From Deltaproteobacteria bacterium (lineage in GTDB: Bacteria; Myxococcota_A; UBA796; GCA-2862545): a stretch of 64,000 nucleotides of DNA. The position numbers and the translations under genes are program-made. The stretch is from assembly GCA_006226595.1 (NCBI GenBank), contig SBGP01000029.1, positions 1-64,000 on the forward strand, in the 5' to 3' direction. The notes under the pieces were generated by a model, which saw only the letters and a program-made list of their open reading frames with translations, was not told the DNA's origin and ran no database searches. Each line of letters begins with the position of its first letter. Position 1 is the first letter of the stretch. Below are positions 38,107 to 51,272 of this stretch, one piece after another.

Positions 38107-39096
38107 CTACAGCGCGCGCCAGCCCACGGAGGGCACGCCCGATCCGGGAGGCGGCGGGTTGGCACCGACCATGTACAGGGCACGCCGATTACGGGCCTCG
38201 TCCACGCCATCTCCGGTCTTCACCTTGAGCAGCTTCTCGCCGAAGCCCCAGTAGAAGATTGGCGCGGAGAAGCCGTGACTGCGGAGCCACGCAGCGATCG
38301 CCCGCGCGCGCTCGAGCGAGAGCGTCTCGTTGTGCGCGGCGTCGCCCACGGTGTCGGTGCACCCGGCGATGTAGAGCTTCACCGGCACGACCTCACCGTA
38401 CTTGTCGAGCACCTCTCGAAGCTCGGTGAGGGTGGCTTCGAGCTTGGGCTCCTCCTCGGGGCGGATGACCGCCTGGTTGCTCTCGAAGAGCACGTCCTCG
38501 TGCGGGATGTCGAGGAACCACGGCGAGTAGGTGAATCCGGCCCACGCGCCGTCCGGTGCGTGCAGCTTCACATCGAGGAGCACGACCTCGCTCGCGGCGC
38601 CGACCCAGGGCACCTCGACCTTGCCGGGGCCGCCCGAGACGTCGGTGGTCTTGCTGTCGAGGACCTTCTTGTGTGCGCCATACGCGATCACTTCGGCCCG
38701 GGCGACCGGCGCGGTGACGTCGACGGTGAGGGTGCGCGACTTCACGTCCGCGGAGGCGTGGGTCAGGTCCACGGACAGGGGCGCGGCATAGCTCCACGAG
38801 ATGGGCACCACCAGCTCTTCGCGGGCGCTGTCCTCGAAGTCCGCGATCACGGTGCACTTCGCCTCGGTCACCGACTCGTCCCGCGGCAGCTCGAAGCGCG
38901 CGCTGGTGTCCGCGAGCAGGCCTCGCTGCTCGAAGCTGTGCGTGTCGCCGCCGGCCTCGCAGTCCACCCACAGGTTCGCCACGGGGCGCAGCGGCGTCAC
39001 GATGAATGCGGGATTCTCGTCGGGTCCGGGCGAGGGCACGAGACCGAAGGAGAGATCGCCGGCGTGCGCGGCGAGGGCGATCAGGAGCGGGAGCAT
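38107..39096 (-). CDS. OmpA-family protein with N-terminal strand-rich domain
   Basis: A 329-residue protein with a signal peptide (MLPLLIALAAHA), a strand-rich region of about 190 residues and a C-terminal OmpA domain (about 205-315). The OmpA part has VLFESNQAVI, KLYIAGCTDTVGDAAHNETLSLERARAIAAW and the late NRRALYMV, with the Asp and Arg that bind the peptidoglycan diaminopimelate. It would tether an envelope complex to the cell wall. The first region lacks a clear beta-barrel pattern. It lies upstream of the MFS/synthase gene on the same strand and is divergent from the first giant gene. Confidence 0.85.
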   Translation of the reverse strand: MLPLLIALAAHAGDLSFGLVPSPGPDENPAFIVTPLRPVANLWVDCEAGGDTHSFEQRGLLADTSARFELPRDESVTEAKCTVIADFEDSAREELVVPISWSYAAPLSVDLTHASADVKSRTLTVDVTAPVARAEVIAYGAHKKVLDSKTTDVSGGPGKVEVPWVGAASEVVLLDVKLHAPDGAWAGFTYSPWFLDIPHEDVLFESNQAVIRPEEEPKLEATLTELREVLDKYGEVVPVKLYIAGCTDTVGDAAHNETLSLERARAIAAWLRSHGFSAPIFYWGFGEKLLKVKTGDGVDEARNRRALYMVGANPPPPGSGVPSVGWRAL

Positions 39097-39267: not shown

Positions 39268-42200
39268 ATGACCGTCCGCTTTCTCGTCGCTTCCACCCTT
39301 CTCGCGCTCTCGAGCGTCGCTTCGGCCACCGAGCCGATGACGCAGCGCGGTGCGTGGGAGGGCAATGTCGACTTCTTCATGACCGGCGCCGCGATCGCGG
39401 TGGACAGCTCGGACAGCGGCACCAACGCCGACGAGGTCGCGGACCCGGCCACCTTCGACGTGCAGGCCAGCGACCTGTCCTCCGGGGCGACGCTCACCGC
39501 GGCCTACCTGTACTGGGGCGGCGACCACAAGAACACCGACTGCGCCTCGCTGCCGACCTACACCATCGACACGGTCGACTACGACTCGGACACGATCACG
39601 CTGACCACCCCGGGCGGCACCGAGACCGCGCTTACCGCCGACGTCTCGTACTGCCAGACCGGCGCGAGCAGCTACGACATCTGGGTGCACCGCAAGGACG
39701 TGACCTCGCTGATCTCGTCGATGACCGGCACCTACTCGATCACCGACTACATCGGCCCGACGCCGAACAACGGCTCGATCGACAACGCCTCGGCCGCCCT
39801 GCTGCTCGTGTACGAGGACAGCGTGCTCCCGCCGCGGCGGGTCGTCTGGTACGACGGAAACATCGAGCTCATCAACAACTCCGAGACCATCACCCTCGGC
39901 GGCTTCGACGTCGACAGCACGCCGGATGCGACGCTCACCTGGTACGTGCTCGAGGGCGACGTCCACACGACCGGGACGAGCGAGTACGTCGAGGTCGACG
40001 GGCGTCCCGGCAACACCAACGGCCCGATCCTGCTCTCCGACGGCGACGTGAACAGCGACCCGTACGAGGTGATGAACGGCACGATCAACACGACCTCGCC
40101 GACCCAGTCGGACCTCGCGGGCGTGGACATCGATCAGTTCGACATCTCCGCGGGCCTCGACGCGCGCGACACCTCGATCGACGTGACCTACGCGGCCGGC
40201 GGCGAGAAGTGGTGGCTCACCGTCAACGTGGTCTCCGTCAAGCTCTACGAGCCCTTCCTCGGCGAGAAGTCCGAGAAGACCTGGGTCCTGTGGGACGACG
40301 CGGACGGCGATGGCGAGCCCACCGCGGGCGACACCATTCGCTACACGATCTACCTGGAGAACACCGGCAACGAGACGGCCACCGTCGACGTGACCGACCC
40401 GATCCCCGCCCAGGCCGCGTCGTGGACGCTGATCGACGACGGCGGTGCGGGCCAGGACCGCAGCCGAGCCGCGCTGCTCGACCTTCGCAACGTGGTGATC
40501 CCCGCCGGGAGCAGCGAGACCATCGTCTTCGACGTCGTGCTCGACGACGTGCCAGACGAGACGCTGATGTCGAACACGGCGAGCTGGAGCGCGCCTGACG
40601 AGGGCGGCGACCCGGGCGACGTGACCGCGACCGACGTCGTCATCCGTCTCGATACCGACGCGGACTCCTGGTACGACAACGACGACAACTGCCCGGAGAT
40701 CCCGAACGCGGATCAGGCCGATGGCGACGGCAACGGCGTCGGCGATGCGTGCGAGGCGCCCGAGATCTGCGACGGCTTCGACAACGACGGCAACGGCCAG
40801 GTCGACGAAGGCTTCGCGGACACGGACGGCGATGGCACCAAGGACTGCGTCGACACCTGCACCGACAGCGACGACGACGGCTTCGGCGACCCGGGCTTCA
40901 CCGCCAACACCTGCCCCGACGACAACTGCCCGAGCGTCGCGAACGCGGATCAGGCCGACGACGACGGCGATGGGGTCGGCGACGTCTGCGACACCTGCAC
41001 CGACAGCGACGGCGATGGCTTCGGCGACCCGGGCTATCCGGCGAACACCTGCGGCGACGACAACTGCCCGACCATCGCGAATGCCGACCAGGACGACACC
41101 GACGGCGACGGCACCGGCGACGCCTGCGACACCGAGCTCTGCGACGGCCTCGACAACGACGGCAACGGCAACGTCGACGAGGGCTTCACCGACACCGACG
41201 GCGACGGCACCAAGGACTGCGTCGACACCTGCGTCGACACCGACGACGACGGCTACGGCAACCCGGGCTACGGCAACACCTGCGCCAACGACAACTGCCC
41301 GACCGTCGCCAACGCGGACCAGGCGAACGCGGACGGCGATGCGTTCGGTGATGCTTGCGACACCTGCACCGATACCGACAACGATGGCTTCGGTGACCCC
41401 GGGTACGCGGCGAACACCTGCGACGAGGACAACTGCCCGAGCATCAGCAACGCGAGCCAGAGCGACAGTGATGGCGACGGTGCCGGCGACGCCTGCGACT
41501 CCGAGGAGTGTGACGGTCAGGACAACGATGGCGACGGCCGCATCGACGAGACCTTCGCGGACGCCGACAGCGACGGCACCAAGGACTGCGTCGACACCTG
41601 CACCGACGTCGACGGCGATGGCTACGGCGACCCCGGGTACGCGGCGAACACCTGTGCCGAGGACAACTGCCCCAGCACCTACAACCCGCCCCAGGGCGAC
41701 GCCGACGGCGACGGGCGCGGCGACGTGTGCGACACGTGCACCGACACCGACGGCGATGGCTACGGCAACCCCGGCTACGCGGCGAACACCTGCCCCGCGG
41801 ACAACTGCCCGACGACCAGCAACCCGCTGCAGACGGATACCGACGGCGATGGCGACGGCGACGTCTGCGACGACTGCGTCGACACCGACGGCGACGGCTT
41901 CGGCGACCCCGGCTACGGCAACACCTGTGCGGACGACAACTGCCCGAGCGTGAGCAACCCGGCCCAGCTCGACGGCGACGGCGACGGGCTCGGCAACGTC
42001 TGCGACACGTGCACCGACAGCGACGACGACGGCTTCGGTGACCCGGGCTACGCGGCGAACACGTGCCCCGAGGACAACTGCCCGTCCGTGGCGAACGCCG
42101 ACCAGGCGAACGCGGATGGCGACTCGAGCGGCGACGCGTGTGACACGTGCACCGACACCGACACCGATGGCTTCGGCGACCCGGGCTACGCGGCGAACAC

Positions 42201-45200
42201 GTGCCCCGAGGACAACTGCCCCGACGACGTGAACCCGTTCCAGCAGGATGCCGACGCCGATGGCCTCGGCGATGTCTGCGACAGCTGCACCGACACCGAC
42301 GACGACGGCTACGGCAACCCCGGCTACGCGGCGAACACCTGCGCCGACGACAACTGCCCGAGTGTCGCCAACCCCGGCCAGGAAGACAGCGACGGGGATG
42401 GCTCGGGCGACGTGTGCGACGGCGAGGACTGCGACGGCGCCGACAACGACGGTGACGGCCGGGTGGACGAGTTCTTCCCGAACGCGGATGGCGACGACGA
42501 CGCGGACTGCGTCGACACCTGCACCGACACCGACGGCGACGGCTTCGGCGACCCCGGCTACCCGAACAACACCTGTGCCGAGGACAACTGCCCGACAGTG
42601 AGCAACCCGGGCCAGGACGACGCCGACGGTGATGGGCTCGGCGACGCCTGTGACACCTGCACCGACGTCGACAGCGACGGCATCGGCGACGACAGCTACC
42701 CGGCGAACACCTGCGGCGACGACAACTGCCCGAACGTGGCCAACGCGAACCAGCTCGACGCCGACACCGACGGCCTCGGCGATGTCTGCGACACGTGCAC
42801 CGACACCGACGACGATGGCTTCGGCGATCTCGGCTACCCGGCGAACACTTGTGCCGCCGACAACTGCCCGGAGACCGCGAACCCGGGCCAGGAAGACGCC
42901 GATACCGACGGCCTCGGCGATGTCTGCGACACGTGCACCGACGGCGATGGCGACGGCTTCGGCGACCCGGCCTTCGCGGCGACGAACACGTGCCCGGATG
43001 ACAACTGCCCGACCACCGCCAACCCCGGCCAGGAAGACGTGGACGCGGATGGCGTGGGTGATGTGTGCGACACGTGCACCGACACGGACGACGACGGCTT
43101 CGGCAACCCCGGCTACGCGGCGAACACCTGTGCCGACGACAACTGCCCGGACGCGGCGAACCCCGCACAGGCGGACGCGGACAGCGACGGACTCGGAGAC
43201 GTGTGCGACACGTGCACCGACACCGACGGGGATGGTGTGGGCGACCCTGGCTTCCCGGCGAGCACCTGCGGCGAGGACAACTGCCCGTCCGTGGTCAACG
43301 CTGGTCAGGAGGACGCCGACAACGACGGCCTCGGCGACGTGTGCGACACGTGCACCGACACCGACGTCGACGGCTTCGGCGACCCCGGCTTCGCGCTCAA
43401 CACCTGTCCGGAGGACAACTGCCCGACCGTGAGCAACGCCGCTCAGGCGGACGCGGACACCGACGGGCTCGGCGATGCCTGCGACACGTGCACCGACACC
43501 GACGGGGATGGCTTCGGCGACCCTGGCTTCCTCGCGAACACCTGCACCGAGGACAACTGCCCGGACGTGGTCAACGCCGGCCAGGAGGATGCGGACGCGG
43601 ACGGGGCAGGGGACGTGTGTGACACGTGCACCGACACCGACGGCGATGGCTTCGGCAATCCCGGCTACGGCAACACGACCTGCACCGACGACAACTGCCC
43701 GAGCGTGAGCAACGCGGACCAGGCCGATACCGACACCGACGGTCTCGGCGACGTCTGCGACAGCGAGGACTGCGACGGCATCGACAACGACGGCAACGGA
43801 AACGTCGACGAGGGCTTCCCCGACACGGACCTCGACGGCATCGCCGACTGCCAGGACGTCGAGGAGTGCGACGGGCTCGACAACGACGGCAACGGCAGCG
43901 TGGACGAGGGCTACGACGTCGACACCGACGGCATCGCCGACTGCTTCGACGTCGAGGAGTGCGACGGTGTCGACAACGACGGCGACGGGCTCGTGGACGA
44001 CGAAGACCCCGACCTCGACACGTCGACGGGTACGACCTGGTACGCCGACGCGGACGGCGACGGCTACGGCAACAACGCCGACCGCCTGCGCGCCTGCGAG
44101 CAGCCCGACGGCTACGTGCCCGGACCCGGCGACTGCGATGACAACTACGCCGAGCGCCACCCCGGCGCGGCCGAGATCTGCGACGGCATCGACAACGACT
44201 GCGACCTGCGCGTCGACGAAGACACCGAGTGCAGCGACGACGACGGTGACGGCTTCACCGAGCTGGGCGGCGACTGCGACGACGCCGATCCGGACGTCTC
44301 GCCCGCCGCGAGCGACGTGTGCAACGAGGTCGACGACGACTGCGACGGCACGACCGACGAGGCGTCGCGGTGCACCGACGACGACGGCGACGGCTCGTGC
44401 GAAGGCGTGGACCTCGACTTCGACGGCGTGCTCGACTGCGTCGACGGCTCGACCCCCGGCGACTGCAACGACGGCGACGACACGGTGAGCAGCGAGCTCG
44501 CGGAGCTCCCCGGCAACGGCGTCGACGACAACTGCGACGGCGTGGTCGACGATGCGGCCTCCGACGAGGATGGCGACGGCTACCTCGCCGAGGGCGGCGA
44601 CTGTGCGACTGGCGACAGCGACAGCTACCCGGGTGCTCCCGAGTTCGCCGACGGCTTCGACAACGACTGCGACGGCACCATCGACGAGGGGACCACGGTC
44701 ACCGACGACGACGGCGACGGCTCGTGCGAGGGCGCGGACCTCGACGGCGACGGGGTCGACGAGTGCTCGGACGGCAGCGTGCCCGGCGACTGCGTCGACA
44801 GCGACGCGAGCGTGGGCGCGACCATCGCCGAGATCGCGGACAACGCCATCGACGACGACTGTGACGGCCTCATCGACGAGAACGGCGACTGGTTCGACGC
44901 CGACGGCGACGGCTACTCGCCGGCCGAGGGCGACTGTGACGACACGAACGTCGACATCTACCCGGGTGCCGAAGAGGCGCTGAACGGCGTGGACGACGAC
45001 TGCGACGGCTTCGCGGACGAGAACCTCACCGACGACGATGGCGACGGATGGACCGTGGCCGACGGCGACTGCGACGACGGCAACGGGTGGGTGAACCCCG
45101 GGCTCGACGAGATCTGCGACGACGGGATCGACAACAACTGCGATGGCGGCATCGACGACGTGTGCGAAGAGGTCGTGACGCCGCCCGTGGATGACGGCAC

Positions 45201-45282
45201 CTGCGGCTGCCGGACGGGATCGGGATCCCTCTGGTGGTGGGCCCCGGCGATCGTCGCGTTTGCGCGGCGTCGCCGGCGCTGA
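39268..45282 (+). CDS. Giant TSP3/MopE repeat surface protein 1, MYXO-CTERM
   Basis: The 2,004-residue protein has a signal peptide (to about residue 20, ASA). An N-terminal domain (about 21-330) begins with an AAYLYWGGDH-type strand, and a DUF11-like domain follows (about 337-465, IRYTIYLENTGNETATVDVTDPIP). About 20 thrombospondin type 3-like repeats come next (about 468-1498, each near 46 residues with DTDGDGFGDPGY and DNCPSVSNADQ), then MopE-like repeats (about 1500-1965, GDCDD and DDDCDG). It ends in a MYXO-CTERM-like tail: CGC, a Trp-rich hydrophobic stretch and five Arg. The Asp-rich loops should bind many calcium ions. It is likely exported and anchored or processed by a myxosortase not seen here. 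GGAGAGG precedes the ATG. Confidence 0.93.
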   Translation: MTVRFLVASTLLALSSVASATEPMTQRGAWEGNVDFFMTGAAIAVDSSDSGTNADEVADPATFDVQASDLSSGATLTAAYLYWGGDHKNTDCASLPTYTIDTVDYDSDTITLTTPGGTETALTADVSYCQTGASSYDIWVHRKDVTSLISSMTGTYSITDYIGPTPNNGSIDNASAALLLVYEDSVLPPRRVVWYDGNIELINNSETITLGGFDVDSTPDATLTWYVLEGDVHTTGTSEYVEVDGRPGNTNGPILLSDGDVNSDPYEVMNGTINTTSPTQSDLAGVDIDQFDISAGLDARDTSIDVTYAAGGEKWWLTVNVVSVKLYEPFLGEKSEKTWVLWDDADGDGEPTAGDTIRYTIYLENTGNETATVDVTDPIPAQAASWTLIDDGGAGQDRSRAALLDLRNVVIPAGSSETIVFDVVLDDVPDETLMSNTASWSAPDEGGDPGDVTATDVVIRLDTDADSWYDNDDNCPEIPNADQADGDGNGVGDACEAPEICDGFDNDGNGQVDEGFADTDGDGTKDCVDTCTDSDDDGFGDPGFTANTCPDDNCPSVANADQADDDGDGVGDVCDTCTDSDGDGFGDPGYPANTCGDDNCPTIANADQDDTDGDGTGDACDTELCDGLDNDGNGNVDEGFTDTDGDGTKDCVDTCVDTDDDGYGNPGYGNTCANDNCPTVANADQANADGDAFGDACDTCTDTDNDGFGDPGYAANTCDEDNCPSISNASQSDSDGDGAGDACDSEECDGQDNDGDGRIDETFADADSDGTKDCVDTCTDVDGDGYGDPGYAANTCAEDNCPSTYNPPQGDADGDGRGDVCDTCTDTDGDGYGNPGYAANTCPADNCPTTSNPLQTDTDGDGDGDVCDDCVDTDGDGFGDPGYGNTCADDNCPSVSNPAQLDGDGDGLGNVCDTCTDSDDDGFGDPGYAANTCPEDNCPSVANADQANADGDSSGDACDTCTDTDTDGFGDPGYAANTCPEDNCPDDVNPFQQDADADGLGDVCDSCTDTDDDGYGNPGYAANTCADDNCPSVANPGQEDSDGDGSGDVCDGEDCDGADNDGDGRVDEFFPNADGDDDADCVDTCTDTDGDGFGDPGYPNNTCAEDNCPTVSNPGQDDADGDGLGDACDTCTDVDSDGIGDDSYPANTCGDDNCPNVANANQLDADTDGLGDVCDTCTDTDDDGFGDLGYPANTCAADNCPETANPGQEDADTDGLGDVCDTCTDGDGDGFGDPAFAATNTCPDDNCPTTANPGQEDVDADGVGDVCDTCTDTDDDGFGNPGYAANTCADDNCPDAANPAQADADSDGLGDVCDTCTDTDGDGVGDPGFPASTCGEDNCPSVVNAGQEDADNDGLGDVCDTCTDTDVDGFGDPGFALNTCPEDNCPTVSNAAQADADTDGLGDACDTCTDTDGDGFGDPGFLANTCTEDNCPDVVNAGQEDADADGAGDVCDTCTDTDGDGFGNPGYGNTTCTDDNCPSVSNADQADTDTDGLGDVCDSEDCDGIDNDGNGNVDEGFPDTDLDGIADCQDVEECDGLDNDGNGSVDEGYDVDTDGIADCFDVEECDGVDNDGDGLVDDEDPDLDTSTGTTWYADADGDGYGNNADRLRACEQPDGYVPGPGDCDDNYAERHPGAAEICDGIDNDCDLRVDEDTECSDDDGDGFTELGGDCDDADPDVSPAASDVCNEVDDDCDGTTDEASRCTDDDGDGSCEGVDLDFDGVLDCVDGSTPGDCNDGDDTVSSELAELPGNGVDDNCDGVVDDAASDEDGDGYLAEGGDCATGDSDSYPGAPEFADGFDNDCDGTIDEGTTVTDDDGDGSCEGADLDGDGVDECSDGSVPGDCVDSDASVGATIAEIADNAIDDDCDGLIDENGDWFDADGDGYSPAEGDCDDTNVDIYPGAEEALNGVDDDCDGFADENLTDDDGDGWTVADGDCDDGNGWVNPGLDEICDDGIDNNCDGGIDDVCEEVVTPPVDDGTCGCRTGSGSLWWWAPAIVAFARRRRR
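40670..43762 (+). repeat. TSP3-like tandem repeat array of giant protein 1
   Basis: About 138-bp in-frame direct repeats, 20 of them marked by a D-N-C-P codon run, encode calcium-type Asp loops. Some units are broken by inserts with an E/D-C-D-G-x-D-N-D-G pattern. Units differ in detail, so the array is old, not a fresh expansion. Assembly of such tracts from short reads can collapse units. Confidence 0.9.
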
Positions 45283-45398
45283 GCCATTTTCGGGCGGGGC
45301 CTGTCCAAAACGTGTAAGATGCGCCGGAACGCGTGTCCGGTGCCTGCTTTCCTTCTGTGGGTACCGGTGGCTCGAGCCCTCACATCAGGGAAGCCTGC

Positions 45399-48300
45399 AT
45401 GTCCAGCTGGACCCCCCACCTCAAGAACGCCGCGCTCATCGCGGTCTCCCTCGCTGCCATGGGAGCCGCCCCCACGGCCTCCGCGCAGTCCTGTTCCGAA
45501 GATGCCGTCGCTTCCTGCGGCGAGATCTGGAACTTCCGCACCGGAACCGGCGGAAGCCTCGACAGCACGACGTGCGGCGGCGGCTACACCGGCAACGAGC
45601 TGATCTGGGAGTTCACTCCCCCGGCCGGGCAGGACGTCGTCCTCTGGGCTGAGATGATCAACTTCACGGGTCCGAGCCGGAACACGATGATGGCCGTCAT
45701 CGAGGATGCGTGCAGCTCGACCGCGGCATGCGTCGAGTTCGACACCGGCTCGTCGACCGGCGAGGACCTGTCGCTGTACTTCACCGCGGACGGCGGCACG
45801 TACTACATCCTCATGGATGGCGACGACCCGAGCCGCACCATCGGCTCGGACTACTTCCAGTTCGGCTGTCCGACCGAGGGCTGTGACATCGGTGGCGCGA
45901 CCCCCGACGTCATCACCTGCTCCACGGACATCGCGGGAACGACGGCCACCGGCACCACGGACGTGCTGGACTTCTACTACTGCGGCGATCCCTACCCGCG
46001 CCTGAACCAGGACAAGCCCGAGAAGGTCTACCAGTTCACGCCGCAGGCGACGGGCTCGGTCACGTTCACGCTCTCCGCGCTCTCCGCGGACCACGACCTG
46101 TACGTGCTCCTCAACTCCTGCGAGCAGGAGGGCTGCATCGCGAGCTCCGTGGTCGCGCGCACGGGCACCGACTCGGTGACCTTCGACGCGGTCGCGGGCA
46201 ACACCTACTACATCGTCGTCGAGACCTACTCCGGCATCACCGGTACCTTCAACCTCTCGTTCGAAGACAACACCGGCGGCTGTAACGAGGACTGCAACGA
46301 CGGCGTCGACAACGACTTCGACGGCGACATCGACTGCGACGACACCGACTGCGCCGGCGAGCCGGAGTGCGAGAACGCCGAGCTCTGCAATGGCGTCGAC
46401 GACGACAGCGACACCTTCGTCGACGAGGGCTACCCCGACGATGACGGCGACGGCACCAAGAACTGCGTCGACACCGAGACCTGCGACGGTGTGAACAACG
46501 ACCTCGACGGCCTGGTCGACGAGGGCTTCACCGACACCGACGGCGACGGCATCAAGGACTGCGTCGATACCTGCGTCGACACCGACGGCGACGGCTACGG
46601 CAACCCCGGCTACGGCAACACCTGCGCCAACGACAACTGCCCGACGGTGAGCAACCCCGGCCAGGCGGACGCGGACGGCGACGGCATCGGTGATGCCTGT
46701 GACACCTGCACCGACACCGATGGCGACGGCTACGGCAACCCGGGCTACGCGGCGAACACCTGCGCCACCGACAACTGCCCGAGCGTGTCGAACCCGACCC
46801 AGGCGAACGCCGATGGCGACGGCCTCGGTGATGCGTGCGACACCTGCACCGACACCGACGGCGACGGCTACGGCAACCCCGGCTACGCGGCGAACACCTG
46901 TGCCGAGGACAACTGCCCGACCATCTCGAACTCGAGCCAGGCCGACGCGGACTCCGATGGCCTCGGCAACGTCTGTGACGACTGCACCGACACCGACGGC
47001 GACGGCTACGGCAACCCCGGCTACACCGCCAACACCTGCACCAACGACAACTGCCCGACGGTGAGCAACCCGAGCCAGACCGACACCGACGGTGACGGCT
47101 TCGGCGACGTGTGCGACATCGAGACCTGTGACGGCGTCGACAACAACGGCAACGGCCAGGTCGACGAGGGCTTCGCCGATACCGATGGCGACGGCATCAA
47201 GGACTGTGTCGACACCTGCACCGACACCGACGGCGATGGCTACGGCAACGCGGGCTACGGCAACACCACCTGTGCCAACGACAACTGCCCGACGGTGAGC
47301 AACCCGAGCCAGGCCAACGCCGATGGCGACGCCCTGGGCGATGCGTGCGACACCTGCACCGACACCGACGGCGATGGCTACGGCAACCCCGGCTACCCCG
47401 AGAACACCTGCCCCGACGACAACTGCCCCAGCGTGTCCAACGCCTCGCAGGCCGACACCGACACCGATGGTATCGGCGATGCCTGTGACACCGAAGAGTG
47501 CGACGGTCGCGACAACAACGGCAACGGGCAGATCGACGAGGGCTACCCCGACACCGATGGCGACGGCACCAAGGACTGTGTCGACACGTGTACCGACACG
47601 GACGCGGACGGCTTCGGCAACCCCGGGTACACCGCCAACGTCTGCGCGAACGACAACTGCCCGAACACCTACAACCCGCTCCAGGGCAACGCCGATGGTG
47701 ACTCGCTCGGTGACGCGTGCGACACCTGTACCGACACCGACGGCGACGGCTACGGCAACCCCGGCTACGCGGCGAACACCTGCCCGTCCGACAACTGCCC
47801 GACGACGAGCAACCCGACCCAGACGGACACCGACTCGGACGGCACGGGCGACGCCTGTGACGACTGCGTCGACACCGATGGCGACGGCTACGGCAACCCG
47901 GGCTACGGCAACACCTGCGCCGACGACAACTGCCCGGTGACCAGCAACCCGGCCCAGGGCGACGTCGATGGCGACGGCACCGGTGACGTGTGCGACACCT
48001 GCACCGACACCGACGGCGACGGCTACGGCAACCCGGGCTACGCGGCGAACACCTGCCCCGACGACAACTGCCCGTCGGTGAGCAACGCCGATCAGGCCAA
48101 CGCCGATGGCGACGGCGCCGGCGACGTGTGCGACAACTGCACCGACACCGATGCGGACGGCTACGGCAACCCGGGCTACGCGGCCAACACCTGCCCCGAC
48201 GACAACTGCCCGACCATCAGCAACCCGTTCCAGCAGGACGCCGACTCCGACGGCACCGGCGACGTGTGCGACACCTGCACCGACACCGATGGCGACACCT

Positions 48301-51272
48301 TCGGCAACCCCGGCTACGGCAACACCACCTGCACCGACGACAACTGCCCGAGCATCGCCAACCCCGGCCAGGAAGACGGCGACGGCGACGGCCAGGGCGA
48401 CGTCTGTGACGGCGAGGACTGCGACGGCGTCGACAACGACGGCGACGGCGGCGTGGACGAGTTCTTCCCCAACGCCGACGGCGACGAGTTCGCGGACTGC
48501 GTCGACACCTGCACCGACACCGACGGGGACGGCTTCGGCGACCCGGGCTACGCGGGCAACACCTGCGCGCAGGACAACTGCCCGGGCGTGAGCAACCCCG
48601 GTCAGGAAGACGCGGACGGTGACGGCATCGGCGATGCCTGTGACACCTGTACCGACGTCGACAACGACGGCATCGGCGACGACAGCTACCCGGCGAACAC
48701 CTGCGGCGACGACAACTGCCTCACGGTGGCCAACGCCAACCAGCTCGACACCGACACCGACGGTATCGGCGACGTCTGTGACACCTGCACCGACACCGAC
48801 GGCGACGGCTTCGGCGACGCGGGCTACCCGGCGAACACCTGTGCGCAGGACAACTGCGTGGACGTGTCCAACCCGGGCCAGGACGACGAGGACGGCGACG
48901 GTCTCGGCGACGTGTGCGACACCTGCACCGACTCCGACGGCGACGGCTTCGGCGACACGGCGTTCTCCGCCAGCAACAGCTGCCCGGACGACAACTGCGA
49001 CGCCATCGCCAACCCGGGTCAGGAAGACGCGGACGCCGATGGCATCGGCAACGTCTGTGACGACTGCACCGACACCGACGACGACGGCTTCGGCAACCCG
49101 GGCTACCCGGCCAACACCTGTGTCGAGGACAACTGCCCGGTCGACTCGAACCCGGGCCAGGCCGACACCGACAGCGACGGCCTCGGCGACGTCTGCGACA
49201 CCTGCACCGACAGCGATGGCGACGGCGTGGGCGACCCGGGCTTCCCGACCAACACCTGTGGCGAGGACAACTGCCCGAGCATCGTCAACGCCGGCCAGGA
49301 AGACGCGGATGGCGACGGCACTGGCGACGTCTGTGACACCTGCACCGACGGCGACGGCGACGGCTTCGGCGACCCCGGCTACGCGCTGAACACCTGCCCC
49401 GAGGACAACTGCCCGGCCATCAGCAATGCTGGTCAGGAGGACGCGGACAGCGACGGTCTCGGCGACGTGTGCGACACCTGCACCGACACCGACACCGACG
49501 GCTTCGGAGACCCGGGCTACCTGGCGAACACCTGTACGCCGGACAACTGCCCGAGCATCAGCAACGCCGGTCAGGAGGACGCCGACAGCGACGGCCTCGG
49601 CGATGTCTGCGACGAGTGCACCGACACCGACGCCGACGGCTACGGCAACCCCGGCTACGGCAACACGAGCTGCACCGACGACAACTGCCCGTCCGTGTAC
49701 AACGCCGACCAGGCCGACAACGACGCGGACGGCCTCGGCAACGTCTGCGACAGCGAGTCCTGCGACGGCATCGACAACGACGGCGACAGCCGCGTGGACG
49801 AGACCTTCCCGGACACCGACGGTGACACCATCGCGGACTGCATGGACACCGAGGAGTGTGACGAGCTCGACAACGACGGCGACGGCAACGTCGACGAAGG
49901 CTTCGACGTCGACGGCGATGGCATCGCCGACTGCGTCGACACCGAGGAGTGCGACGGCGTCGACAACGACGGCGACGGCCTCGTCGACGACGACGACCCG
50001 TCCGTGGATGCGACCACCGGCAGCCTCTGGTTCGAGGACGCCGATGGCGACGGCTACGGTGATGTCGGCAGCAGCGTCTACGCCTGCGAGCAGCCCGATG
50101 GCTACGTGGCGAACTCCGAGGACTGCGACGACGTGCATGCGACGCGCAACCCCGGTGGCGCCGAGACCTGTGACGGCGTCGACAACGACTGCGACTACTA
50201 CGTCGACGAGGGTACCGAGTGCTCCGACGACGACGGCGACGGCCTGACCGAGCTCGGCGGCGACTGCGACGACACCGACGCGGCGGTTCGCCCAGGTGCG
50301 GTCGAGACCGCCAATGGCACCGACGACGACTGCGACACCATCACCGACGAAGAGACCGCGCTCACCGACGACGACAACGACGGTTACTGCGAGGGCTTTG
50401 ACCTGAACGCCGACGGCACCCCCGAGTGCTCGGACGGCTCGACGGTCGGTGACTGCAGCGACGGCGATCCGAACGTGAACCCGGCCGAGGGCGAGTTCGT
50501 CGGCAACGGCATCGACGACAACTGTGATGGCGTGGTCGACGACGACGTCGCCGACAACGACGGCGACGGCTACACCACCGGCGGCGGCGACTGTGACGAC
50601 ACCTCGTACACCACCCGTCCGGGCGGCAACGAGCTCCCGAACGACGTGGACGACGACTGTGACGGCGTGGTCGACGAGGGCACCCTGGTCACCGACGACG
50701 ACGGCGACGGCTTCTGCGAGGGCGTCGACATCGACCGCGACGGCACCCCGGACTGCACCGACGGCTCGACCCCCGGCGACTGCAACGACACCAGCACCGC
50801 TCAGGACCCGAGCGAGACCGAGGTCGCGAACGGCGCCGACGACGACTGTGACGGCCTTGTCGACGAGGGCAGCGACGTCTTCGACGACGACGGCGACGGC
50901 TTCTCCGAGACCGCGGGCGACTGCGACGACAGCAACCCGAACATCTACCCGGGTGCGGAGGAGATCCAGAACGGTCTCGACGACGACTGTGACGGTCGTG
51001 CCGACGAGAACAGCGAGGACCTCGACCGCGACGGCTACACCTCGGCGGACGGCGACTGCGACGACGAGAACGGCTGGGTCAACCCGGGTCTGGACGAGAT
51101 CTGCGACGACGGCATCGACAACGACTGCGATGACGAGGTCGACGAGGGCTGCGACACCGATGTGGTGGTGCCCGACGACGGCAAGTGTGGCTGTCAGTCC
51201 ACCACGCCGCTGACCGGCATCTGGCCGCTCGTCGGCCTGCTCGCCCTGCTCCGGCGTCGCCGCGCGGCCTAG
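45399..51272 (+). CDS. Giant TSP3/MopE repeat surface protein 2, MYXO-CTERM
   Basis: A 1,957-residue tandem paralogue of the preceding protein in its last 1,600 residues. The N-terminus is unrelated: a signal peptide (to about 31, ASA), two strand-rich PPC-like (pre-peptidase C-terminal) domains (about 33-165 and 170-300; TYYIVVETYSG is typical), then DCNDGVDNDFDGDIDC. The array has 21 TSP3-like units (about 390-1450), of which three have DNCL, DNCV or DNCD. MopE-like repeats follow, and a tail of CGCQ, a hydrophobic stretch and RRRR. I use the ATG at 45399, from which the signal peptide is well formed; 22 residues upstream in frame are not needed. The gap to the first gene is 116 bp. Confidence 0.93.
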   Translation: MSSWTPHLKNAALIAVSLAAMGAAPTASAQSCSEDAVASCGEIWNFRTGTGGSLDSTTCGGGYTGNELIWEFTPPAGQDVVLWAEMINFTGPSRNTMMAVIEDACSSTAACVEFDTGSSTGEDLSLYFTADGGTYYILMDGDDPSRTIGSDYFQFGCPTEGCDIGGATPDVITCSTDIAGTTATGTTDVLDFYYCGDPYPRLNQDKPEKVYQFTPQATGSVTFTLSALSADHDLYVLLNSCEQEGCIASSVVARTGTDSVTFDAVAGNTYYIVVETYSGITGTFNLSFEDNTGGCNEDCNDGVDNDFDGDIDCDDTDCAGEPECENAELCNGVDDDSDTFVDEGYPDDDGDGTKNCVDTETCDGVNNDLDGLVDEGFTDTDGDGIKDCVDTCVDTDGDGYGNPGYGNTCANDNCPTVSNPGQADADGDGIGDACDTCTDTDGDGYGNPGYAANTCATDNCPSVSNPTQANADGDGLGDACDTCTDTDGDGYGNPGYAANTCAEDNCPTISNSSQADADSDGLGNVCDDCTDTDGDGYGNPGYTANTCTNDNCPTVSNPSQTDTDGDGFGDVCDIETCDGVDNNGNGQVDEGFADTDGDGIKDCVDTCTDTDGDGYGNAGYGNTTCANDNCPTVSNPSQANADGDALGDACDTCTDTDGDGYGNPGYPENTCPDDNCPSVSNASQADTDTDGIGDACDTEECDGRDNNGNGQIDEGYPDTDGDGTKDCVDTCTDTDADGFGNPGYTANVCANDNCPNTYNPLQGNADGDSLGDACDTCTDTDGDGYGNPGYAANTCPSDNCPTTSNPTQTDTDSDGTGDACDDCVDTDGDGYGNPGYGNTCADDNCPVTSNPAQGDVDGDGTGDVCDTCTDTDGDGYGNPGYAANTCPDDNCPSVSNADQANADGDGAGDVCDNCTDTDADGYGNPGYAANTCPDDNCPTISNPFQQDADSDGTGDVCDTCTDTDGDTFGNPGYGNTTCTDDNCPSIANPGQEDGDGDGQGDVCDGEDCDGVDNDGDGGVDEFFPNADGDEFADCVDTCTDTDGDGFGDPGYAGNTCAQDNCPGVSNPGQEDADGDGIGDACDTCTDVDNDGIGDDSYPANTCGDDNCLTVANANQLDTDTDGIGDVCDTCTDTDGDGFGDAGYPANTCAQDNCVDVSNPGQDDEDGDGLGDVCDTCTDSDGDGFGDTAFSASNSCPDDNCDAIANPGQEDADADGIGNVCDDCTDTDDDGFGNPGYPANTCVEDNCPVDSNPGQADTDSDGLGDVCDTCTDSDGDGVGDPGFPTNTCGEDNCPSIVNAGQEDADGDGTGDVCDTCTDGDGDGFGDPGYALNTCPEDNCPAISNAGQEDADSDGLGDVCDTCTDTDTDGFGDPGYLANTCTPDNCPSISNAGQEDADSDGLGDVCDECTDTDADGYGNPGYGNTSCTDDNCPSVYNADQADNDADGLGNVCDSESCDGIDNDGDSRVDETFPDTDGDTIADCMDTEECDELDNDGDGNVDEGFDVDGDGIADCVDTEECDGVDNDGDGLVDDDDPSVDATTGSLWFEDADGDGYGDVGSSVYACEQPDGYVANSEDCDDVHATRNPGGAETCDGVDNDCDYYVDEGTECSDDDGDGLTELGGDCDDTDAAVRPGAVETANGTDDDCDTITDEETALTDDDNDGYCEGFDLNADGTPECSDGSTVGDCSDGDPNVNPAEGEFVGNGIDDNCDGVVDDDVADNDGDGYTTGGGDCDDTSYTTRPGGNELPNDVDDDCDGVVDEGTLVTDDDGDGFCEGVDIDRDGTPDCTDGSTPGDCNDTSTAQDPSETEVANGADDDCDGLVDEGSDVFDDDGDGFSETAGDCDDSNPNIYPGAEEIQNGLDDDCDGRADENSEDLDRDGYTSADGDCDDENGWVNPGLDEICDDGIDNDCDDEVDEGCDTDVVVPDDGKCGCQSTTPLTGIWPLVGLLALLRRRRAA
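46561..49757 (+). repeat. TSP3-like tandem repeat array of giant protein 2
   Basis: Twenty-one in-frame direct repeats of about 138 bp, related to those at 40670-43762 and in the same order of variant units. Long direct repeats of this kind, twice in 9 kb, could recombine to delete or fuse the two genes. Confidence 0.9.

Follow-up and report, generated by a model that had tools for sequence, protein, structure and literature searches.

How did two neighbouring genes of an uncultured myxobacterium come to carry long, closely similar arrays of repeats behind N-terminal heads that are unrelated? Gene A (39268..45282, 2004 aa) and gene B (45399..51272, 1957 aa) lie in tandem on the + strand, 116 bases apart, in the window, which is the whole 64,000-nucleotide stretch of contig SBGP01000029.1 that was analysed. 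The initial annotation interpreted them as a long tail duplicated as a block, on which the heads had been swapped. The answer depends on which of three parts, head, stalk or tail, has kept company with which.

Domain architecture of the two genes

The reading frames of A and B are open at these coordinates, the ATG at 45399 being the best start of B, and all features of A and B given below are on the + strand. Each protein consists of a signal-peptide-like N-terminus (judged by eye), a beta-rich head, a long TSP3-like stalk with many Cys and Asp residues, a MopE-type tail and a MYXO-CTERM anchor. The head of A (39331..40632, residues 22-455) contains a DUF3344-like domain followed by DUF11 at about residues 349-447. 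PF11824 was matched by one of seven relatives (E 3e-5), and the DUF11 part scored 21.2-23 bits with Pfam PF01345, below the cut-off of 24.6, and 29.9-32 bits with TIGR01451, above the cut-off of 24. The structural model of this head was beta-rich, with no class other than beta and a mean pLDDT of 76, and a Foldseek search with it gave only weak, generic matches to beta-rich structures, including the adhesins 4igb and 5wtb, at TM-scores of 0.3 or less. DUF11 is described in the available part of PMC9210967 as resembling a collagen-binding domain, and in that of PMC10952558 as one of the stalk repeats of CshA-type fibrillar adhesins. The head of B (45462..46298, residues 22-300) contains a PPC domain (PF04151, 29.5 bits, above the cut-off of 25.9), and its model was poor (mean pLDDT 68). 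These domain matches agree with the initial annotation, according to which the N-terminal parts differ wholly, with a DUF11-bearing head in A and a PPC head in B.

The tails of A (43960..45279) and B (49950..51269) are 440 aa each and contain MopE metal-binding motifs, with PF11617 scores of 108.7 bits for A and 108 bits for B against a cut-off of 27. MYXO-CTERM sorting signals are located at 45193..45279 in A and 51177..51263 in B; when the last 59 aa were scanned with TIGR03901, the scores were 22.6 and 26.6 bits, both above the cut-off of 20, and with whole proteins B scored 20.3 bits and A was not among the matches. Upstream of A, a divergent gene on the - strand (38107..39096) encodes an OmpA-domain protein, which is a possible envelope partner of A. 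This protein showed a weak similarity to the OmpA part of TraB (17.7 bits, far under the cut-off).

Register of the stalk repeats

The stalk of A (40858..43761) consists of 19 long units of 44-46 aa with three internal joint units, and a further, shorter TSP3 unit adjoining the head brings the count to 20; the stalk of B (46572..49751) consists of 21 units. Every long stalk unit, in A and B alike, contains four cysteines. These numbers bear out the initial annotation, which had counted 20 and 21 TSP3-like units. The word "TSP3-like" is the right one, since the whole-protein scores for the thrombospondin type 3 repeat (PF02412) were 19.1 bits in A and 23.3 bits in B, under the cut-off of 25, although one stretch of B scored 25.9 bits when taken with its neighbours. 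With the DxDxDG loops seen in their units, the disulphide-rich stalks are probably calcium-binding.

The order of the idiosyncratic units had also been claimed to be equal in the two genes, and all four were found at a single offset of two: YNP-x-Q in A5 and B7, NPFQQD in A9 and B11, the DEFFPNADGD linker in A10 and B12, and DGIGDDSYPANTCGDDNC in A12 and B14. The linkers, which follow units 2, 4, 10 and 19 in A and units 4, 6, 12 and 21 in B, showed the same offset. Mean identity between each A unit and the B unit two places further on was 0.794, against 0.723 for the next best offset and a mean of 0.684 off register, and none of 100,000 random pairings reached the in-register value. For 13 of the 19 A units (A6-A9 and A11-A19) the register partner was the best among the 21 B units, and for A10 it ranked third. 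The partners of A1-A5 ranked only 16, 5, 2, 5 and 11, so that the securely paired units number about 14. The secure block is thus A6-A19 (41737..43761), which corresponds to B8-B21 (47727..49751), and the pairing of A1-A5 is ambiguous.

The unit-by-unit tree that had been proposed as a check was poorly resolved, with 45 columns and 40 of the 41 parsed rows, the dropped row being a false unit inside the tail of A. It nevertheless gave strong support to the cross-gene pairs A12/B14, A14/B16, A6/B8 and A19/B21, and the grouping of all A units together was rejected (p-AU 0.0007). A common origin of the repeat blocks of A and B, in register, is thereby supported. A separate expansion in each gene, with functional constraint as the sole cause of the likeness between units, would fit the 68-70% identity of the units even off register and the lack of a clear pairing for A1-A5, but it is barely credible as a whole and is ruled out for A6-A19/B8-B21 by the single offset of odd units and four linkers, by the permutations, and by the rejection of grouping by gene.

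Other arrays were compared with these stalks. Derivation of the A/B stalk from G1 or G63, two giant genes elsewhere in the genome, was rejected, as no register was found (best offsets 0.59-0.62, means 0.57-0.60). G1 (G000:C1:202500-214000, L014) and G63 (G000:C63:23500-35500, L015) are MYXO-CTERM-like frames of 2677 and 2693 aa that are in-register paralogues over their whole length, including the heads; one such gene is present on contig C18 of G001, a genome of the same genus. A protein from another genus (G008 C164, head missing) has the 45-aa unit type and a tail of like class, with no clear register with A or B, so stalks of this type did not first arise in the lineage of the window.

Tails, and a same-genus relative with another stalk

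Along A, the identity to B was about 80% in the stalk and dropped sharply to 50-70% (60-aa windows) at about residue 1580, at the start of the tail. The tails of A and B were 60.7% identical to each other, and their mean identity to the tails of four paralogues of the same genome (C11, C40, C1b and C52) was 59-60%; the excess of the A-B pair was +0.012 (95% CI -0.016 to +0.048). Tail trees were built from 14 of 23 proteins (in 8 no tail start was recognised by pattern, and G009C109, of 127 aa, was omitted), or from 15 with G008C164. A clade of the A and B tails was rejected in both (p-AU 0.0024 and 0.0015), and the tail of A was joined to that of the gene on contig C45 of G001 with support of 100/99. 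Since the tails are no closer than to other paralogues and the A+B clade is rejected, duplication of the long tail as a block is unsupported. Of the block claimed by the initial annotation, the repeat part thus stood, with its common origin and register, and the C-terminal tail fell outside it.

Among the 38 genomes searched as relatives (own genome included), the head of A was found in five, and G001 is the only other genome of the same genus. Its C45 gene is the orthologue of A and adjoins the same OmpA gene (75%). Compared with this orthologue, A is 73.7% identical in the head and 75.8% in the tail, and only 43.8-51% in the stalk, while compared with B it is 29% identical in the head, 61% in the tail and 73-82% in the stalk. 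The stalk of the orthologue contains 17 CGCG motifs, in 33-aa units, and zero 45-aa units; two CGCG motifs occur in C11, a distant paralogue in the genome of the window with the A type of head. Head swapping on a shared stalk, as first proposed, is therefore not supported for A: its head and tail are both orthologous to a single G001 gene (74% and 76%), so the head was not moved onto the stalk and tail of B, and the stalk between them is the odd part.

For B, no orthologue was found in G001, where the best head match was 41% and the best tail match 63%. G001 is a draft metagenome-assembled genome whose contig stops 131 bases past the orthologue of A, so that the site of B is unreadable there; its PhoD gene, the downstream neighbour, is located on another contig, and the ORFs listed for the roughly 10 kb before that gene include no Asp-rich repeat ORF. 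By head as well as tail, B is nearest to C40 of the same genome, a protein with a stalk of 33-aa joint units, neither placement being well supported. A and B thus each have a relative with like head and tail and a different stalk, which suggests that the exchanged part was the stalk, and that head and anchor end stayed with each protein. C40 itself has a likely orthologue on contig C157 of G001, with 78.5% identity in the stalk, 73.5% in the tail and only 40% in the aligned head region; in this pair the fastest-changed part appears to be the head, not the stalk.

A wider survey of A-type heads was also carried out. A genome-wide scan with the head of A alone gave no matches, and one with an alignment of five heads gave 25 loci, 11 at E 4e-79 or better and 14 at E 3e-20 or worse. 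Four of the 11 close loci (L091, L092, L094 and L099) were G001C45, G012C687, G009C109 and G012C605, and the seven new ones, added to seven from the own genome and relatives, made a set of 14 proteins. The C-terminal Cys-helix-Arg anchor was recognised by eye in 13 of them, the remaining one, G012C687, running off its contig. The region behind the head ranged from about 104 to 1558 residues and was labelled as CGCG (2 proteins), 45-aa units (1), short TSP3 (1), "PGFDD" (3), MopE only (1), mixed (1) or almost without repeats (5); motif counts served only for the 45-aa and CGCG units, and "PGFDD" was assigned by eye. On the head tree, whose 14 rows include a partial head (far_L100) and a short, distant one (G010C7), at least seven label changes were needed, with a minimum possible of six, and with many labels spread over a small number of rows this count is weak evidence. 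The strong case is the pair of A and G001C45.

Further giant frames were noticed during the survey. Locus L061 (G004:C17:38000-57900) contains two tandem PPC-headed giants, frames of 1585 and 1884 aa, whose tails are sisters. A small, related gene with MopE-like motifs, about 495 aa long, follows each giant, and a similar small gene is present near C40, G001 C157 and G011 C534. In the genome of the window, L021 (G000:C112:43500-55500) contains adjacent MopE-rich frames of 1843 and 1734 aa, and within about 9 kb G001 C109 contains several such frames, 1671-2249 aa long.

Origin and function of the shared stalk

The edges of the stalk point to a possible route of exchange. A 33-aa joint unit (ECDG-DNDG-VDEGF-DTDGDG-ADC type) is present at both stalk edges in A, B and G001C45, as well as within the stalks of A and B, and it is the main stalk component of C40, C1b and C52. 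At the 5' edge of A it lies with the head-proximal TSP3 unit at 40633..40857, and the joint units at the 3' edges are located at 43762..43959 in A and 49752..49949 in B. Over its initial third the first joint of A resembled G001 (94% of bases), and over the rest it resembled B (83% and 91%), all within a length of only 96 bases, a mosaic that is suggestive of a trace of recombination.

In the reading that we consider the probable one, A and B are surface proteins of the MYXO-CTERM kind, most probably adhesins, which have separate heads and tails but carry copies of one stalk cassette. The earlier stalk of one of the two was lost to this cassette of 45-aa TSP3-like units. In the simplest version, a copy of the stalk of B would have replaced the CGCG-type stalk of A by homologous recombination or gene conversion, with the 33-aa joint units at both stalk edges as the likely crossovers. 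The direction of transfer and the recombination at the joints, like calcium binding and adhesion, we infer from the sequences.

The age of the shared stalk could be estimated from proteins only. Four-fold synonymous sites were identical at 70.0% in register and 73.1% off register; they are saturated and useless for dating. Since register brings no gain in identity at these sites, the transfer was not a recent event, and no date can be read from the DNA. The excess of in-register identity between the stalks of A and B was 0.35, or 0.44 for A6-A19, and the tails showed none, so stalk and tail are of different age. As a yardstick, the similar stalks of G1, G63 and G001C18 gave excesses of 0.22 and 0.31 for comparisons across the two species and 0.51 for the pair inside one genome, and the C-terminal PPC modules of these giants were 62-77% identical. 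The sharing of the stalk by A and B would thus date from about the time of the species split or from later.

A different history would start from one old tandem duplication of stalk and tail before the species split, with the head replaced in A or B, gene conversion keeping the stalks alike, and G001 later swapping the stalk of A and losing B; it amounts to the model of the initial annotation moved to an earlier time. The clade of A, G001C45 and B is compatible with the tail trees (p-AU 0.35 and 0.20) and leaves room for such a duplication, which would also fit the tandem arrangement on one strand and the register of the units. We nevertheless hold it to be unlikely, since the A and B tails show no greater similarity than those of other paralogues beside a stalk excess of 35-44%, C11 combines the head of A with CGCG units, and more events would be required, a stalk swap in G001 still among them.

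An assembly artefact, in which a chimeric contig would have given A the repeats of B, or G001 C45 its CGCG repeats, appears quite improbable. Both genomes are drafts, and the G001 contigs C150 (L087) and C160 (L086) break within arrays of nearly identical repeats, which calls for caution with assemblies of genes like these. However, the stalk DNA of A and B is 80-83% identical and has no exact match longer than 56 bases, and the stalks are thus too different for collapse; moreover, the frames are open across all junctions and CGCG units are present in C11 too. About equally improbable is the block duplication with a head swap after the species split, as the initial annotation had it: in-register repeats behind unlike heads would be expected from it, but the A+B tail clade is rejected and the head and tail of A are orthologous to one G001 gene. 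A recent head swap on a duplicated stalk and tail is ruled out by the tail tree and the tail identities.

Under the stalk-replacement reading, A and B would be exported by Sec, lipidated, cleaved at the MYXO-CTERM signal by a myxosortase and carried to the surface by type II secretion, by analogy with relatives. There the disulphide-rich, probably Ca2+-binding stalk would keep the head far from the outer membrane and bring it into contact with cells or matrix. Judging from their sequences, both proteins are most probably adhesins of the MYXO-CTERM class, lipid-anchored at the cell surface. In Myxococcus xanthus, according to the consulted part of PMC11980579, a myxosortase acts on the MYXO-CTERM tag and sorts these proteins, which are mostly predicted to be surface adhesins or hydrolases. 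In the genome of the window there were eight matches to PF02517 (Rce1-like), a family also present in 11 of 14 control genomes.

The architecture resembles several known systems. TraA probably displays its head on a stalk rich in cysteines, and the TSP3 repeats of TraB are predicted to bind calcium (PMC12045341, in the part available). In architecture A and B are like TraA as described in the accessible parts of PMC12045341 and PMC11980579, with a signal-peptide-like start, a variable head, a cysteine-rich stalk that likely presents it, and MYXO-CTERM; unlike TraA, they have TSP3/MopE stalks and other heads. With MtsC, a MYXO-CTERM protein of cell-cell cohesion (NCBIfam NF047638), they share TSP3-type repeats and the anchor, but their scores of 304.7 (A) and 282.8 bits (B) were below the curated cut-off of 350, and the best-matched stretches were the repeats. 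Fibrillar adhesins of the CshA/B NR2 type (Barringer et al. 2023, PMC10952558) likewise combine one head type with many types of stalk repeat and a constant C-terminal surface anchor. That study, to the extent of the text available, concerns proteins across phyla with other anchors, whereas here orthologous heads and tails flank differing stalks within one genus and the stalk of A matches that of a neighbouring gene unit by unit. In periscope proteins (PMC8201768, part available), the tandem-repeat stalk similarly sets the projection distance of an N-terminal functional domain; there the number of highly similar repeats varies, whereas here the kind of repeat changes and the units are about 65-70% alike.

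It is already known that adhesins are modular and that one head type occurs on many stalks with a constant kind of anchor. The present comparison adds a same-genus orthologous pair whose stalk was changed in situ, together with a match of that stalk, unit by unit, to the adjoining gene; a literature search limited to open papers found no report of stalk exchange among MYXO-CTERM proteins. A bolder view, which we put forward as a rather unlikely one, is that in this group of myxobacteria the stalks are cassettes exchanged through a common pool, with the shared 33-aa joint as their boundary. Recombination at the joints would let dozens of paralogues acquire stalks from each other while head and anchor stay in place, and would so reset the reach and stiffness of the surface layer and leave its specificity unchanged. 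Whole-protein gene trees of such repeat proteins mix three histories. The orthologous pair from the two sister genomes, in which a single type of head and of tail goes with two stalks, provides a natural experiment on the role of the stalk type, and if stalks swap as cassettes, then reach, stiffness and calcium response would evolve apart from binding specificity.
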